The notes under the pieces: model-generated
What the model was told of the DNA's origin: nothing
The model's input: the letters and a program-made list of their open reading frames with translations, nothing else
Database searches by the model: none
Program-made: the position numbers and the translations under genes
Shown: in pieces, positions 43,832 through 63,894 of the stretch
Position numbering within the stretch: position 1 is the stretch's first letter
Layout of the letters: every line of letters begins with the position of its first letter
Assembly: GCF_001428065.1 (NCBI RefSeq)
Contig: NZ_LMSE01000002.1
Location: 154,226 to 218,225, forward strand
Source of the DNA: Nostocoides sp. Soil756
GTDB lineage: Bacteria; Actinomycetota; Actinomycetes; Actinomycetales; Dermatophilaceae
DNA length: 64,000 bases
Direction: 5' to 3'

Positions 43832-45607
43832 TCACCCCTCGTCGCGCCAGGACCGCCAGAGCGCGGCGTAGTCGCCGTCGGCGGCGAGCAGCTCGTCGTG
43901 CGAGCCGAGCTCACTGACCCGGCCACCGTCGACCACGGCCACCCGGTCGGCGTCGTGCGCCGTGTGCAGCCGGTGCGCGATGGCCACCACGGTGCGCCCG
44001 GTGAGGACCGCTCCGAGCGAGCGCTCGAGGTGGCGCGCCGCCCGCGGGTCGAGCAGCGAGGTGGCCTCGTCGAGCACGAGGGTGTGCGGGTCGGCCAGCA
44101 CCAAGCGGGCCAGGGCGACCTGCTGGGCCTGGGCCTCGGTGAGCTCGTGGCCGCCCGAGCCCACGCGCGTCGCCAGCCCGCGCGGCAGCGCCTCGGCCCA
44201 CTCGAGGGCGTCGACGGCCTCGAGGGCCCCTCGTAGCTCGTCGTCGGTGGCCGTGGGCCGGGGGAGGCGCAGGTTCTCGGCCAGGGTGCCGACGAAGACG
44301 TGGTGCTCCTGGGTGACCAGGGCGACCTGGCCGCGCAGCTCGTCGAGCTCGAGGTCGACCAGCGGCACACCGCCGACCGCGATGCGCCCGGTGCGCGGGC
44401 CGTCGACGCCTGCCATCAGCCGCCCCAGGGTCGACTTGCCCGCCCCCGACGGACCGACGACCGCGAGGCGCTCGCCGGGGTGGAGGTCGAGCGACACCCC
44501 GTGCAGCACGTCCTGGCCGGGCCGGTAGGCGTAGCGGACGTCGTCGACCTCGAGCTGGTCGTCGCGCGGCACGGCACCGGTGGCCACCCGGTCGGGCGGC
44601 ACCTCGCCGACCCCGAGGATGCGCGACATCGACGTGGCGGCGAACTGGATCTCGTCGAGCATCCCGACCAGCTCACCGAGCGGGTCGAGCAGGCGCTGCA
44701 CGTAGAGGACGACAGCGGTCGCGGCGGCCACCGGGATGACGCCCTCCCAGGCCAGCCAGCCGCCCCACAGCAGGGCACCGGCGATGGGCGCGAAGAACCC
44801 CAGCTCGAGCCAGGGGAACCAGCGCAGCCGCAGGCCCACGGTGTAGCGCTCGGCGGCGTGGCTCTCGGCCACGGCCTCAGCGAACCGCTCGCCGCGCTCC
44901 TGCGACAGGCCGAGCGCGTCGACGGTGGCGGCGCCCTCGACGGTCTCGGCGGCCACCCCGTTGAGGCGGGCGTAGGTGGCGTGCTCCCACAGGTAGCCCG
45001 GGCCGGCCAGGCGCAGGTAGCGCCGGGTGGGCAGGAACCAGACGAGCGGCGTCAGCAGCAGTGGCAGCGCGGCCAGCGGCGACACCAGCACGGTGGCGAC
45101 GCCGGTGACCAGCACGGTGGTCACCGACACCACGACCGAGGGGATGCCGAAGCGGATGACGTAGCTGATGGCGTCGATGTCGTTGGTCGTGCGGGCGAGC
45201 AGGTCGCCGGTGCCGGCCCGCTCGACGGTCGAGAGCGGCAGCCGCACCGCCGAGCCCACGAAGTCCTCGCGCAGCCGCGCGAAGATGCGTTCGGACAGCA
45301 CGAACGACCCGCGCCGGGCCAGCCAGGTGGCCCCGGTCTCGGCCAGCAGGGCGGCGGCCAGCAGCCCGACCAGCACGTCGATGTCGGTGATGACGGCGCG
45401 GCCGGTGGTGACGACCCCGACGACCTGGCCGATGACCCAGGGCCCGGCGAGCCCCACGACCGCGGCCAGCAGGTGCCACAGCAGCACGCCGGCCAGCGGC
45501 CGCCGGTGCTCGCGCAGCAGCACGCCCACGTGGGTGCGCACGACCGACCCCGGCGCGATGGGCAGGGTGCGCCGGGCGTGGTCGGTGCGCTCGGACAGCG
45601 GCGACAT
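43832..45607 (-). CDS. ABC exporter subunit (TMD-NBD) with intact Walker motifs, degenerate signature
   Basis: A 591-residue type IV exporter half: six membrane helices (about 40-310) and an NBD. Walker A GPSGAGKS (385-392), Walker B LVLDE (Asp513, Glu514) and the switch His545 are intact. The signature motif is LTEAQ (489-493) instead of LSGGQ. It starts one base inside the stop of the other subunit gene, so the two are co-translated and almost surely form a heterodimer. One ATP site (these Walker motifs plus the partner's LSGGQ) should work; the other should not. Substrate is unknown. Confidence 0.92.
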   Translation of the reverse strand: MSPLSERTDHARRTLPIAPGSVVRTHVGVLLREHRRPLAGVLLWHLLAAVVGLAGPWVIGQVVGVVTTGRAVITDIDVLVGLLAAALLAETGATWLARRGSFVLSERIFARLREDFVGSAVRLPLSTVERAGTGDLLARTTNDIDAISYVIRFGIPSVVVSVTTVLVTGVATVLVSPLAALPLLLTPLVWFLPTRRYLRLAGPGYLWEHATYARLNGVAAETVEGAATVDALGLSQERGERFAEAVAESHAAERYTVGLRLRWFPWLELGFFAPIAGALLWGGWLAWEGVIPVAAATAVVLYVQRLLDPLGELVGMLDEIQFAATSMSRILGVGEVPPDRVATGAVPRDDQLEVDDVRYAYRPGQDVLHGVSLDLHPGERLAVVGPSGAGKSTLGRLMAGVDGPRTGRIAVGGVPLVDLELDELRGQVALVTQEHHVFVGTLAENLRLPRPTATDDELRGALEAVDALEWAEALPRGLATRVGSGGHELTEAQAQQVALARLVLADPHTLVLDEATSLLDPRAARHLERSLGAVLTGRTVVAIAHRLHTAHDADRVAVVDGGRVSELGSHDELLAADGDYAALWRSWRDEG

Positions 45608-47319
45608 CAGTCCTCCTCGCCGCGCACGACGACGGCCCGGTAGCGGGCGTCGGCGCGCGAGAGCTCACGGTGGGTGCCGGTGGCGGCCACGCGGCCGTCG
45701 ACCACGAGGTGCACGACGTCGGCGTGCTCGAGCAGCAGCGGGCTGGCCGTGACCACCACCGTGGTGCGGCCCTTGCGGTGCTCGGCCAGGCGGCCGGCGA
45801 TGCGCGCCTCGGTGTGCGCGTCGACGGCGCTGGTGGGCTCGACCAGGACCAGCACGTCGGGGTCGCGCAGCAGGGCGCGGGCCAGCGCGAGTCGCTGGCG
45901 CTGGCCGCCGGAGAGCGAGCGGCCGCGCTCCTCGACCTCGCCGTCCATCCCGCCCTCGACCGCGGCCAGGGCGTCGTCGGCGTCGGCGACGGCCAGCGAG
46001 GCCATCCGGGCGTCGTCGTCAGGGCCGCCCAGCGCGCCCCGCAGCGGGCCGCTGAACAGCCGGGGGTCGGCCTGCGAGACCAGCACCCGGGCCCGCACGT
46101 CGGCCAGCGGCAGGTCGTCGAGCGCCTCCTCGCCCCAGGTGACGCCGTGCCGTCCCGGGACGGTGCGGCCGAGCCGGCCGGCGATGGCGGCGGTGTCGTC
46201 CGGGCGGGCGGCGACCAGCGCGGTGAGGACGCCGGGCTCGACGGTGACGCCGGAGGTGGGGTCGACGAGCGCGGCGTCGGGCGGGACCCAGCCGGTGGGC
46301 TCGAGGGCGGGGTGGTCGGGCTCGGTGGCCAGGATGCGCGCGATGCGGCGGCCGGCGACCCGGGTGGTGATGAGCTTGTCGGCCATCTCGACGGCGGTCT
46401 GCAGCGGGATGGTGAGGAAGGCGGTGTAGCCGTAGAAGGCGACGAGCTGGCCGGCGCTGATCTGCCCGTCGACGGCCAGGTGGGCGCCCACCCCGGTGAC
46501 GACGAGCACGAACAACCCGGGCAGCAGCACCTGGGCCGAGTCGAGGGTGGCCTGGGTGCCGGCGACCCGCACCCCGGCCCGTCGCACGGTCTGCGACTGC
46601 GCGCGGTAGCGGGCCAGGAACGAGTCCTCGCCGCCGATGCCGCGCAGCACCCGCAGGCCGCTGACGGTGTCGGCGCCGAGCGCGGTGAGCCGCCCGGCCT
46701 CCTCGCGCTGGGCGCTCTGGCGCCGCTGGAGGGGCTTCATGACGAACGCCAGCGAGCCCACGAGCAGCGGGCCGCCGAGCAGCATGATGAGCCCGAGCAG
46801 CAGCGAGCCGCGCAGCAGGATGACCGCGACGACCACGAACGACACGACCGCGCCCATGAACCGCGCGAAGACGTCGAAGGTGTGGCCCATCCGCCCGAAG
46901 TCGCTGGTGAAGCTGGCCAGCACCTCGCCGGCGGGCATCGTGCGGGTCAGGGCCGGGCCGGTGCGGCGCACCGCGCGGTCGGCGACGACGCCGGCGCGGA
47001 AGGCCGCGACGAGCCAGTTCTTGACGGCGAACCAGTGCCGGCCGTTGCCGGCGGCCGCCGACACCGCGCCGAGGCCGAGAACGGCCAGCGACCACAGGGC
47101 GAGGGCGCGGCCGTCGCGGGCGACGATGCCGTCGTCGACGGCGCGGCCGACGGCGGCCGGCACCAGCGCGACCGAGAGCATCCACGGGATGCCGAAGCAC
47201 GCGCCCGCGAGGAGGGATCGCCACTGGCGGCGTGCGAGCCACACGAGCAGCCGGTCGGTGTCGGCCGGGGCGTCGTCATCGGGTCGCACGCCGTAGAACC
47301 AGGGCGGTCTCGTCGGCAT
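45607..47319 (-). CDS. ABC exporter subunit (TMD-NBD) with canonical signature, lost Walker motifs
   Basis: A 570-residue exporter half with six membrane helices (about 35-315). The NBD keeps a perfect signature LSGGQ (469-473), but the Walker A position reads AARPDDTAA (370-378) with no GKS/T. Walker B is VLVLVE, with Val493 replacing the aspartate but Glu494 kept. The switch His is absent (VVVTASP). It therefore cannot bind ATP in the normal way and serves as the partner supplying LSGGQ. The ATG has GGAG six bases upstream. First gene of the two-gene operon, downstream of the MOSC gene and a palindromic repeat. Confidence 0.9.
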
Positions 47320-47400
47320 GATGGCTCCACGCTAGGTGCTCGGGCCGACACGTTGCGAACGGGTTTCCGCCCCGCCCTCACCCCCGACCCCCCTCCACTT

Positions 47401-47479
47401 TTCGGGGTGACCCCGAAACGTCAGCCTCACCCCGGTTCGGAAGCGGGGTGAGGCTGACGAACCGGGGTCTCGAGGCGCC
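47401..47479. repeat. Dispersed 79-bp palindromic repeat, copy A
   Basis: Two adjacent hairpins: TTCGGGGT (47401-47408) with ACCCCGAA (47410-47417), then perfect 15-base arms 47420-47434 and 47444-47458 with a 9-base loop, then a conserved 21-base tail. A second copy lies at 63412-63490, same orientation, 69 of 79 bases identical by my alignment. Both copies are intergenic. Confidence 0.85.
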
Positions 47480-47521: not shown

Positions 47522-48094
47522 TCAGGGCAGCCGGCGTGCCCCGGCGCCCGCCCGGATGGATGCCGCCTCGCGCGACCGGGTGGCGCGGGCGGCGGCCTCC
47601 TCCGGGGTGAACGGCAGCTCGACGTAGGCGTCCCCGACCGCGATATCCCCGCCCTCGACGATGCGGAACACGGTCCCGGCCCGAGCGTGCAGGGCCGCCG
47701 CCGCACCGGGCCCGACCTCGTCGTCGAGGATGCGGCACGGCGCCGCGACCCGCACGACCTCGAGCAGCACCGGCCCGATGCGGGCCTGCGCCCCGGGCAC
47801 CGACACCACGTCGCCGGTGTCGACCGTGATGTTCCGCCGCGTACCGGGAAGCGGTACCGGGGCGCCCAGCCGATCGGCCGCCTCGGCCAGGCGGGCCGCC
47901 GACTGCACCGTCACGTGGCGGTGCCGGCTGCCGTGGTAGCGGTCGCCGACCAGCCCCACCCCGGCCTCGGCCGCCACCGAGCCGACGGCGCGCATGGGCA
48001 GCCGGCGGCCGGGCGCGACGTGGATCGCGGTCACGACGGCACCGGATACGGCACGGTCGGCGGGGATGGCGGGGATGGCGGGGGTGGCGGCCAT
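47522..48094 (-). CDS. MOSC-domain protein
   Basis: A 190-residue MOSC-fold protein (molybdenum cofactor sulfurase C-terminal type). Typical segments are GLVGDRYHG, ITVD-like NITVDTGD and APCRILDDE with the conserved cysteine near residue 118. MOSC proteins handle sulfur for metal cofactors or sugar modification; the substrate here is unknown. The N-terminus is encoded by a short GGGGATGGC-type repeat (PAIPAIPA). A GACAAT box six bases before the ATG suggests a leaderless mRNA. It is divergent from SURF1 with 41 bases between starts. Confidence 0.87.
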   Translation of the reverse strand: MAATPAIPAIPADRAVSGAVVTAIHVAPGRRLPMRAVGSVAAEAGVGLVGDRYHGSRHRHVTVQSAARLAEAADRLGAPVPLPGTRRNITVDTGDVVSVPGAQARIGPVLLEVVRVAAPCRILDDEVGPGAAAALHARAGTVFRIVEGGDIAVGDAYVELPFTPEEAAARATRSREAASIRAGAGARRLP

Positions 48095-54226: not shown

Positions 54227-54250
54227 CCTCCAACTTTCTCGCCCGGTGCG

Positions 54251-54301
54251 GGAACCTTCACCTGGACCCCGGAACGGTTCCGTTGCCCCACTGAAGGTTC
54301 C
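54251..54301. repeat. Nested inverted repeats between gatD and the M18 gene
   Basis: GGAACCTTCA (54251-54260) pairs with TGAAGGTTCC (54292-54301). Inside is CGGAAC-G-GTTCCG (54270-54282). It could be a terminator for gatD or a regulator-binding region. Unlike most neighbouring intergenic DNA it contains AT-containing arms. Confidence 0.5.
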
Positions 54302-54422
54302 GGTGCCCGAGCCCCCCGACCGGCCGGCGTACCCCCTCCGCCCGCCCCCGCACCTCGCCCCACGGCCGGCCACCGCGGCGCCCGGCCGGGAGCCCCCATC
54401 GCGCGGATGCCAGGATGGCGGG

Positions 54423-61435: not shown

Positions 61436-62689
61436 GTGCCCACCCCCTACGAGCCCGCCGCGTCGCGCGCCTGGGCCGCGTCCGAGCCGCCGAGGCCCGT
61501 GGTGACGCGCCCGCCGCTGGTGCGTTCGCGCACGGCCGGCTGGACCCCCGGGGTGTGCGACGCGGTCGCCCGCCATCTCGGGGTCTCACGCCGGCTGGTG
61601 CGGGCCGCCTTCGTGGTGCTGGCGCTGTCCGGCGGTGCCGGGGTGGCGGCCTACCTCTTCCTCTGGGCGCTGACCTCCGAGTCCGAGGACGTGGCCCCTG
61701 CCGGCAGTGCGCGGGGCTGGTCCGAGCGGCGCCGCTCGGCGCTCCTGCTGCTGGGGGGCGGGGTGGCCGTCGTCGTGGGGCTGGCGCTGCTCGTCCCGGG
61801 TCTCGGTGTCTCGCTGCGGGGCTCGGGCATCCTGCCGGTCCTGGTCATCGCCGTCGGCGCCGTGGTGGCCTGGTCGACCCTCGACGAGGCGCAGCGCTCG
61901 CGGTGGCTCACCGGGCGGCCCGGGGGGATGACCTGGGTGCGCATCGCGCTCGGCGGCGGGCTGGCGCTGCTCGGCATCCTGGTGCTGATGACCCGGGGGC
62001 GCTCGATCTCGGTGGTCTGGGACGCGATGCTCGCCGCGCTGTCGGTGCTGGTCGGTGCCCTGATCATCGCCGCGCCCTGGGCGGTGCGGCTCTGGAGCGA
62101 CTTCCGGCGCGAGCAGGTGGCCGCCGCGCGGGCCACCGAGCGCGCCGACATCGCGGCCCACCTGCACGACTCGGTGCTGCAGACGCTGGCCCTCATCCAG
62201 CGCCAGGCCGACGACGGGCAGGCCGTCACCCGGCTGGCCCGGGCCCAGGAGCGTGAGCTGCGGACCTGGCTCTACGACGGGCCGCAGGGGTCGCAGCAGT
62301 CGCTCGCGGCCGCCGTCACCGAGGTCGCCCACGAGGTCGAGGACCTGCACGGGGTTCCGGTCGACCTCGTCGTCACCGGCGACCGCCCGTTCGAACAGCA
62401 CGGGGCCGCCCTCTCGCGGGCGCTGCGCGAGGCCCTGCTCAACGCCGTCCGCCACGCCGCCCCGCCCGTCACCGCCTACGTCGAGATCGGCCCCCACGGG
62501 GTCGAGGCCTTCGTGCGTGACCGCGGGGCCGGCTTCGACCTCGAGACCGTGCCGGACGACCGCCTCGGCGTGCGACAGTCGGTGCTGGGCCGGATGGAGC
62601 GCCACGGCGGCTCGGCCCGGGTCCGCCGCCGCGACGACGGCACCGAGGTCGAGCTCCGACTTCCGCCCCTCGAAGGAGAGCAGTCATGA
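61436..62689 (+). CDS. PspC-domain sensor histidine kinase (NarL/LiaS type)
   Basis: A 417-residue membrane kinase. A PspC domain (about 30-85: VCDAVARHLGVSRRLVRAAFVVLALSGG) comes first, then four helices (about 100-220). The phosphoacceptor is His244 in HLHDSVLQTLALIQ, and the HATPase_c domain has LNAVRHA and DRGAGFDL. GTG 61436 has CAGGAT six bases upstream and looks leaderless. It overlaps the response regulator gene by four bases. It probably senses envelope damage and phosphorylates the next gene product. Confidence 0.92.
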   Translation: MPTPYEPAASRAWAASEPPRPVVTRPPLVRSRTAGWTPGVCDAVARHLGVSRRLVRAAFVVLALSGGAGVAAYLFLWALTSESEDVAPAGSARGWSERRRSALLLLGGGVAVVVGLALLVPGLGVSLRGSGILPVLVIAVGAVVAWSTLDEAQRSRWLTGRPGGMTWVRIALGGGLALLGILVLMTRGRSISVVWDAMLAALSVLVGALIIAAPWAVRLWSDFRREQVAAARATERADIAAHLHDSVLQTLALIQRQADDGQAVTRLARAQERELRTWLYDGPQGSQQSLAAAVTEVAHEVEDLHGVPVDLVVTGDRPFEQHGAALSRALREALLNAVRHAAPPVTAYVEIGPHGVEAFVRDRGAGFDLETVPDDRLGVRQSVLGRMERHGGSARVRRRDDGTEVELRLPPLEGEQS

Positions 62690-63402
62690 CCACCACCCCC
62701 GCCCCCGCACCCTCGTCCGGCCCGGTGCGCGTCGTCCTCGTCGACGACCACCGGATGTTCCGCACCGGCGTGCGGGCCGAGCTCACCGAGGCGATGGCGG
62801 GCGGTGCTCCCGTGTGCGAGTTCGTCGGAGAGGCGCCTGACGTCGACAGCGCGATCGCGGTCATCCGCAGGGAGACTCCCGACGTGGTGCTGCTCGACGT
62901 GCACCTGCCCGGCGGCTCGGGCAACGGCGGCGGCGACGTCATCCGCGGGTGCGCCGGGGTCGAGACGGCGTCCGGGGCGCCGGTGCGCTTCCTGGCGCTG
63001 TCGGTCTCGGACGCCGCGGAGGACGTCATCGCCGTCATCCGGGCCGGGGCCCGGGGCTACGTCACCAAGACCATCAACGCGCGTGACCTGGTGACCGCCA
63101 TCCGACGGGTGGCCGACGGCGACGCGGTGTTCTCGCCGCGGCTGGCCGGCTTCGTGCTCGACGCGTTCGGGGCGGCCGCGGGCGAGATCGCCGAGGTCGA
63201 CGAGGAGCTCGACCGGCTCTCGGCCCGCGAGCGCGAGGTGATGCGGCTCATCGCGCGCGGCTTCCAGTACAAGGAGGTCGCCAAGGAGCTGTTCATCTCG
63301 GTCAAGACCGTCGAGACCCACGTGTCGTCGGTGCTGCGCAAGCTCCAGCTGAGCTCGCGCCACGAGCTGACGGCCTGGGCGATGGGCCGCCGCCTCGTCT
63401 GA
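62686..63402 (+). CDS. LuxR/NarL-family response regulator
   Basis: A 238-residue regulator with receiver domain (VDDH acidic pair about 19-22, phosphorylated Asp71 in LLDVHLPG, Lys in YVTKT) and a C-terminal LuxR-type helix-turn-helix (LSAREREVMRLIARGFQYKEVAKEL...VKTVETHVSSVLRKL). The ATG overlaps the kinase stop and is preceded by AAGGAG. It is the DNA-binding output of the PspC system. Just after the stop lies copy B of the dispersed palindromic repeat. Confidence 0.95.
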   Translation: MTTTPAPAPSSGPVRVVLVDDHRMFRTGVRAELTEAMAGGAPVCEFVGEAPDVDSAIAVIRRETPDVVLLDVHLPGGSGNGGGDVIRGCAGVETASGAPVRFLALSVSDAAEDVIAVIRAGARGYVTKTINARDLVTAIRRVADGDAVFSPRLAGFVLDAFGAAAGEIAEVDEELDRLSAREREVMRLIARGFQYKEVAKELFISVKTVETHVSSVLRKLQLSSRHELTAWAMGRRLV

Positions 63403-63411
63403 CCTCCCCTG

Positions 63412-63490
63412 TTCGGGGTCACCCCGACATGTCAGGGTCACCCCGGTTCGGAACCGGGGGGATGCTGACGAACCGGGGTGTCGAGGCGCG
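63412..63490. repeat. Dispersed 79-bp palindromic repeat, copy B
   Basis: Same element as 47401-47479 with ten differences. The first hairpin has lost one pair. The outer part of the long stem is broken (only GTCAG/CTGAC kept), but the centre is a tighter palindrome CCCCGGTT-CGG-AACCGGGG (63441-63459). The 21-base tail is nearly identical. Confidence 0.85.
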
Positions 63491-63537: not shown

Positions 63538-63894
63538 ATGACCCTCCTCGAGAACGTCTTCGTCCTGCTGCACCTGCTGGGGATGGCCGCCATCGTCGGC
63601 AGCGCGGTGTTCGTCGCGCGGGGGCGTTCGACCCCGGCGCTGCTGTGGGGGGCGCGGGCCCAGATCGTCAGCGGGCTGATCCTGGTCGGTATCGCCGGGG
63701 CGGGGACCGACCCGGTGAACCACGCGAAGATCGGCGTCAAGCTGGTCATCGCGATCGCCGTCGCCGCCTGCGCCGAGATCGCCGCCGCCAAGGTCCGCAA
63801 GGGCGAGGGCGAGCGCCCGCAGCTGGTGACCGCCGCCGGCGCGCTGGCCGTGCTCAACGCCGCCATCGCGGTGCTCTGGGTCTCCGGCTCCTGA
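63538..63894 (+). CDS. Small four-helix membrane protein
   Basis: A 118-residue protein consisting almost wholly of four membrane helices with short loops and one cysteine in helix three. The layout resembles small actinobacterial integral membrane proteins of unknown function. Located 36 bases or so after repeat copy B, with its own leaderless-type promoter. Confidence 0.7.
   Translation: MTLLENVFVLLHLLGMAAIVGSAVFVARGRSTPALLWGARAQIVSGLILVGIAGAGTDPVNHAKIGVKLVIAIAVAACAEIAAAKVRKGEGERPQLVTAAGALAVLNAAIAVLWVSGS

Follow-up and report, generated by a model that had tools for sequence, protein, structure and literature searches.

The closest described systems are REP and REPIN elements with RAYT genes (TnpA-REP; REPtron), in which short intergenic palindromes occur in tens of copies and doublets form hairpins, the RAYT gene is flanked by its own repeats, and enzyme and repeat co-diversify; in these reports, the enzymes dedicated to REP-like elements belong to the HUH tyrosine transposases (PMC3116915, PMC8266576, PMC3733652). 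One REP super-family, the CGTC-tagged REPs, with stems of 8-9 bp and loops of 4-5 bp, is reported without a dedicated transposase (PMC3733652).

The window analyzed here, that is, the whole stretch of 64,000 nucleotides, contains two copies (A and B) of a palindromic element that belongs to a dispersed family. The element consists of a 17-bp palindrome, P1 (TTCGGGGTNACCCCGAA), a long hairpin, P2, and a tail, and is referred to as class I. Its features in the window are as follows (G000 is the own genome, G006 a close relative):

47392-47478, + strand: copy A, class I element (P1 palindrome, hairpin, tail), from alignment, repeat finder and genome search
47401-47417, unstranded: P1 palindrome of copy A, TTCGGGGTGACCCCGAA, equal to site G000:C2:201626-201642
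47420-47458, + strand: P2 hairpin of copy A, GTCAG type; the orthologous G006 site has a hairpin of different sequence
47459-47475, + strand: tail of copy A (GAACCGGGGTCTCGAGG), which partly repeats the loop-proximal 3' arm in direct orientation, from alignment and by eye
54231-54306, + strand: copy of a class II element, unrelated in sequence to class I; flanking copies of this element bracket the paralogue G000:C2:272887-273762
63403-63489, + strand: copy B, class I element; the orthologous place is empty in G006
63412-63428, unstranded: P1 palindrome of copy B, one mismatch, TTCGGGGTCACCCCGAC, equal to site G000:C2:217637-217653
63431-63469, + strand: P2 hairpin of copy B, from pattern search and folding

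The class I family in the window and in the genome

As originally observed, copies A (47401-47479) and B (63412-63490) are identical at 69 of 79 positions, counted on the alignment, share one orientation, and are both intergenic according to de novo gene calls. A repeat finder reports the pair at 87% identity over 87 bases (47392-47478 and 63403-63489). Copy A is flanked by called genes 45607-47319 (-) and 47522-48094 (-) and copy B by 62686-63402 (+) and 63538-63894 (+); copy B begins immediately 3' of a stop codon. A 39-base hairpin pattern allowing up to three mismatches matches copies A and B only within the window, each on both strands (shuffles expect 0), and Rfam yields no known RNA family at gathering score there. 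Copy A had been described as two adjacent hairpins. The perfect 15-base arms of the second (47420-47458) are present, but the predicted RNA optimum does not consist of two separate hairpins: the ACCCCG of the first palindrome pairs with the CGGGGT of the tail. On the + strand, copy A folds at -54.2 kcal/mol (z -6.1), beating all shuffles, and copy B at -45.1 kcal/mol (z -2.6), with 1 of 200 shuffles folding as well.

The suggestion that the pair represents a REP/MITE-like, multi-copy intergenic family is borne out by the rest of the genome (3.47 Mb, 9 contigs searched) and by empty sites in a relative. Copy A as a query gives 87 matches on both strands of G000, and 22 of these are near full length with an identity of at least 85%. 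For the P1 17-mer there are 38 places, 34 of them exact and four with one mismatch, and a reversed control pattern gives 0. The genome-wide count goes far beyond the two window copies. All 38 P1 sites lie outside called genes, 20 in a tandem, 12 in a convergent and five in a divergent setting, with one undetermined; among the full copies, five of 22 are divergent.

In the oriented alignment of the 22 copies, the consensus order is CCTC, a few bases, P1 (TTTCGGGGTSACCCCGAAA), P2 of ~15-18 pairs, and a tail with TCTCGAG at its end, and P1 stands at one end only. The claim that the whole unit is repeated holds for P1, which is common to the copies and nearly invariant, but the unit is more complex than proposed, as the hairpin occurs in several mutually replacing sequence types. 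The P2 arms vary yet mostly keep pairing: both-sided changes affect 22 cells, a count that 0 of 500 shuffles reach (shuffled mean 8.4), while the number of P2 pairs with a both-sided change (five, shuffled mean 3.5) is reached in 58 of 500 shuffles and thus does not exceed them. The outer pairing of P1 with the tail was rejected as a conserved structure because both-sided changes are confined to the P2 stem and tail cells break uncompensated.

A covariance model of the class I family matches 16 of 58 related genomes and 10 of 12 in the host genus, own genome included. Of 98 genomes searched for the exact P1 17-mer, 6 contain it, all of the host genus; among viral contigs, seven contain the 17-mer, each at a single place. 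In other species the layout is the same but the palindrome differs (CTCGGGGTGACCCCGAG in G008; CGTATCGGGTSACCCGATACG in G002 and G005). In two copies from G001 the hairpin sequence is wholly different, yet the repeat of the loop-proximal 3' arm in the tail is retained (by eye). Short derivatives with two P1-type palindromes ~60 bp apart occur in G009 and other genomes.

A gene family flanked by its palindromes

Outside the window, P1 stands on both sides of one gene, G000:C2:1019846-1020760. P1 pairs 1.2-1.5 kb apart exist in several genomes, and the four that were fetched (G000, G001, G006, G009) each enclose one member of the same gene family; P1 also brackets the gene in G003 and G004. AbiEi-type winged helices are DNA-binding antitoxin or regulator domains. 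The own-genome protein matches AbiEi_4 at its N-terminus (E 5.8e-8) and MTES_1575 at its C-terminus (E 4.5e-6, under the curated Pfam cut-off), and PADLOC AbiEi models match it as well. Among 50 relatives at E<=0.01, the AbiEi winged helix (AbiEi_4, PF13338) is found in 47, DUF559 in 21 and MTES_1575 in 18, the last two with listed scores below the Pfam cut-offs, which makes the nuclease domain assignment weak. Ten residues are invariant in all 50 members (E200, D232, E243, D245, K249, E261, K262, R264, E265, D266), and MTES_1575_REase is counted among the Vsr-fold domains (PMC3710099). The gene product is predicted to combine an AbiEi-type winged helix with a putative Vsr/MTES_1575-type PD-(D/E)XK nuclease domain. 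A sequence search retrieved no solved structure for the protein.

The family is common, with a match in 49 of 58 relatives and eight in the own genome. Searches of phages, plasmids and viral contigs gave no match to the AbiEi/nuclease-type protein, and PHROGs gave none for two family members. A phage or plasmid origin was rejected on the absence from the phages, plasmids and viral contigs searched, which fits a chromosomal gene, as for RAYTs. A RAYT/TnpA-REP protein, which the initial checks proposed to look for, was discarded as the partner: Y1_Tnp (PF01797) has 0 matches in G000, the same search is positive in 5 of 14 control genomes, and the partner found is a different, unrelated gene.

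Judged by eye from protein starts, the class I gene lies between a small lipoprotein-like gene and uvrC at three loci (L076, L077, L078), and uvrA is near it at two (L077 and L079). The P1-flanked gene of G003 (P. jejuensis; L135, G003:C5:155014-155747) has a profile match in two pieces and therefore looks disrupted; G003 nonetheless holds 40 exact P1 sites.

The association of gene and repeat extends to several actinobacterial genera. It was measured as the longest exact repeat common to both 500-base flanks of a locus, non-palindromic repeats being counted too. A shared repeat of at least 18 nt is present at 40 of 63 family loci and at 1 of 76 control genes; the 63 loci remain from 70 after removal of duplicates L099 and L104 and of five more whose short flanks gave no value. 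In a named set of 80 loci, 22 of which overlap the first set and six of which have short flanks, 30 of the 74 with full flanks share at least 18 nt, compared with 0 of 287 placements shifted within these loci, and 41 of 74 share at least 16 nt, compared with 2 of 287. The repeats differ by genus, and loci with at least 18 bases include members from Knoellia, Nostocoides, Janibacter, Terrabacter, Kribbella, Aeromicrobium and Rhodococcus. A shared 18-nt repeat is missing from 23 of 63 and 44 of 74 loci, and on a tree of 109 proteins loci without repeats are more frequent outside the clade that contains the own-genome gene. Two family genes (L120 and L142) are flanked by long direct repeats of 94 and 63 bases, unlike the palindromic elements.

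Within the bacterial family, TATCGGGTNACCCGATA is found in 29 of 186 genomes, up to 64 times (reversed control 0 in each). Among the places listed, all four pairs of TATCGGGTNACCCGATA palindromes 1.1-1.5 kb apart bracket an ORF of the gene family (E 3e-82 to 4e-108), as had been predicted; two wider pairs have no such ORF between them. A profile (A6) of 11 proteins linked to GGGTNACCC palindromes matches 77 of the 186 genomes at E<=1e-60, comprising 28 of 29 with TATCGGGTNACCCGATA and 49 of 157 without. The profile rows came from 10 of the 29 and 1 of the 157; with these genomes set aside, the figures are 18 of 19 and 48 of 156. The p-values for co-occurrence are too small because the genomes tested are related. 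Paralogues account for the matches in genomes without TATCGGGTNACCCGATA. Matches of at least 400 bits occur in 20 genomes, four of which lack TATCGGGTNACCCGATA (G070, G132, G133, G134), and in these four the gene flanks carry variants of the TATCGGGTNACCCGATA palindrome. All four genomes contain TCTCGGGTNACCCGAGA, in 6, 3, 3 and 3 copies, respectively, and just 11 of 186 genomes overall have it. As G070 gave a row to the profile, three of the four are new. Among the 30 best loci of the family-wide search, 27 share a flank repeat of at least 16 nt, as do 10 of the 13 not in the earlier sets. One genome (G128) has 64 copies of the TATCGGGT palindrome, those listed all centred on A or T; in other genomes most listed places of this palindrome centre on C or G.

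Quick protein trees under a simple model were used to compare palindrome and protein. The GGGTNACCC class requires 6 changes on a tree of 109 proteins, in which some loci were held twice, against a shuffled mean of 16.2; with duplicates removed (104 rows) it again requires 6, against a mean of 15.1, and 0 of 500 shuffles are as low. Classes I and II alone are one change apart. The class II label, which rests on a loose pattern, shows no clustering of its own in the tree without duplicates: its 6 rows need 6 changes, and each of 500 shuffles does as well. On the tree of 109 proteins, 40 rows fall in the clade with the own-genome gene, 35 of them with flank repeats, or 37 and 32 minus three doubled loci. 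On these sequence-based trees, the main palindrome class is tied to protein type.

Several gene-palindrome pairs may coexist in one genome. In G000, the paralogous AbiEi-type gene at G000:C2:272887-273762 is flanked by the class II element, which has the layout CAACTTTCTCGCCC, hairpin, GAAGGTTCC and gives 27 matches at ~21 distinct places after merging. The Rhodococcus element occupies eight distinct places in its genome (16 matches, both strands), and in three genomes a Kribbella element has 66, 18 and 65 matches, both strands counted.

Hairpin turnover at fixed sites

G006, with ~90% identical DNA around the gene, carries P1 at the orthologous place of 27 of the 38 G000 sites. In the reverse view, 27 of 28 exact G006 P1 places were examined and all 27 are shared. 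The remaining 11 G000 sites are unshared. Five are clean empty sites in G006, with both flanks aligned and a difference of little more than the element. The comparison covered 10 of the 11 sites, 704978 being left out:

217637 (copy B), 236686, 136593, C3:33903 and C3:271527: clean empty sites in G006, from two-sided flank alignment
158170, 413300, 957677 and C6:27536: a longer segment, ~0.3-1.3 kb, is missing from G006
1115493: G006 has ~0.9 kb of other DNA in place

Target-site duplications, proposed as a mark of insertion, were not seen by eye at the five two-sided empty sites, and no precise insertion signature was found in the G006 empty-site comparison. In this two-genome comparison without an outgroup, the unshared sites represent either gain in G000 or loss in G006.

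At sites that have not moved, different hairpins are found. Of the 25 shared sites compared, with copy A's site among them, 9 have a replaced P2 next to a retained P1. P2 identity at the nine is 0.45-0.70, compared with a mean of 0.61 for unrelated P2, and the P1-side flank is 77-95% identical. For 5 of the 25 pairs (464541, 374347, 85795, 110751, 65295) the automatic procedure seems to have picked the wrong hairpin side, and pair 464541, also under 0.7, was excluded from the nine. Supposed 'solo' P1 sites without a hairpin were dismissed, since at the shared sites compared they carry hairpins of other sequence types.

The G000 hairpin is of the GTCAG type at all nine replaced sites, and 10 of the 11 unshared sites are of this or a near type (C6:27536 is not). 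Because the same type marks both groups, one hairpin type appears, from its sequence distribution, to have spread in the G000 lineage, over old copies and at new sites. Site 574290 is an apparent chimera, with a GTCAG-type hairpin keeping the GTGCAC foot seen in G006. P1 end types were also considered as a separator of overwritten and new sites and gave no clean fit.

Proposed explanation and comparison with known systems

Copies A and B are probably non-autonomous members of a dispersed palindromic family of Phycicoccus (the genus is inferred), with the P1-flanked winged-helix/putative-nuclease gene encoding the cognate enzyme. We infer P1 binding, cleavage and element movement by the putative nuclease. 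The winged helix would recognise P1, the nuclease would nick or cut the element or DNA close to it, and repair or copying that draws on another element would overwrite the hairpin of an existing copy or, more rarely, seed the element at a new intergenic site.

An ordinary cut-and-paste DNA transposon with MITEs would make the gene a transposase and the palindromes its terminal inverted repeats. The gene is indeed located between element copies, and the short derivatives with two P1-type palindromes ~60 bp apart in G009 and elsewhere would suit such a transposon. TnsA, a restriction-fold nuclease, takes part in Tn7 transposition. However, among the matches listed no genome has two near-identical bracketed genes, phages, plasmids and viral contigs give no match, the G006 comparison reveals no target-site duplication, and G006 has P1 at the orthologous position of 27 of the 38 sites, which together make a classical transposon quite unlikely. 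The conserved, near-perfect P1 could also be the operator of an AbiEi-type transcription regulator with a regulon of ~38 sites, in which case the hairpins would be incidental terminators. AbiEi (PF13338), generally known as a DNA-binding antitoxin/regulator domain and found in 47 of 50 members, agrees with this, but 12 of 38 P1 sites are flanked by convergent genes, a setting in which a promoter would not be expected, and P1 also stands downstream of the gene, that is, on both sides. Nor would an operator explain the hairpin with compensatory changes in 22 full copies, the sites present in one close genome and absent from the other, or the putative nuclease residues invariant in 50 of 50; a regulon is considered unlikely.

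Stable hairpins, the absence of P1 sites inside called genes (0 of 38), the start of copy B right after a stop codon, and arms that keep pairing through change (22 both-sided cells against a mean of 8.4; 0 of 500) would all be expected if the elements were bidirectional transcription terminators spread by ectopic recombination, with the flanked gene a passenger. Such terminators are nevertheless quite unlikely to be the explanation: the consensus has no T run after the hairpin, five of 38 P1 sites are divergent and hence not confined to gene 3' ends, and terminators give no reason to expect one gene family, across many genera, between copies of the same palindrome. A simple terminator was rejected as the general function because of the divergent full copies (5 of 22) and P1 sites (5 of 38).

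The preferred reading of a nuclease acting on its own palindrome can be widened, though only tentatively, to a new class of selfish repeat system across Actinomycetota, in which an AbiEi winged-helix/Vsr-type nuclease and its cognate palindrome would home within the genome, overwriting the hairpins of elements already in place and seeding further ones, with several such pairs per genome, each having its own enzyme and palindrome. No report of this gene-palindrome association was found among the titles and abstract starts of open-licence papers. If true, a second, unrelated enzyme type would have the same gene-repeat layout, and nuclease-palindrome pairs would have arisen more than once. A function would also be suggested for common actinobacterial AbiEi/DUF559-type proteins of unknown role, and many repeats in high-GC genomes would be explained. 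The shared sites would provide a natural record of within-genome overwriting, in which the site and P1 are the same and the hairpin is new.

Compared with described systems, the family shares with MITEs its short, non-autonomous and palindromic elements and its presence/absence differences between genomes, but no target-site duplication was seen and the partner belongs to no known transposase family; the gene-bearing unit has P1 too, but in the aligned G000 copies it stands at a single end. The N-terminal AbiEi winged helix (PF13338) recalls AbiE type IV toxin-antitoxin systems. Here, in contrast, a C-terminal putative nuclease domain is part of the same protein, and the neighbours look, by eye, like a lipoprotein gene and uvrC/uvrA. 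The second stem here, of ~15-18 bp, is longer than the stems of CGTC-tagged REPs, and only some of the copies show a CGTC start. As in REP/RAYT systems, intergenic palindromic copies accompany an enzyme gene flanked by its own repeats. However, G000 has no Y1/HUH transposase gene (PF01797), the 22-copy consensus has no GTAG at the palindrome foot (by eye), and the family is not filed as REP/RAYT in the strict sense on account of these two absences. The enzyme here instead combines an AbiEi winged helix with a putative Vsr-type nuclease, and orthologous copies may have the same P1 but different hairpins. By analogy, the arrangement is REPtron-like, with an unrelated enzyme.
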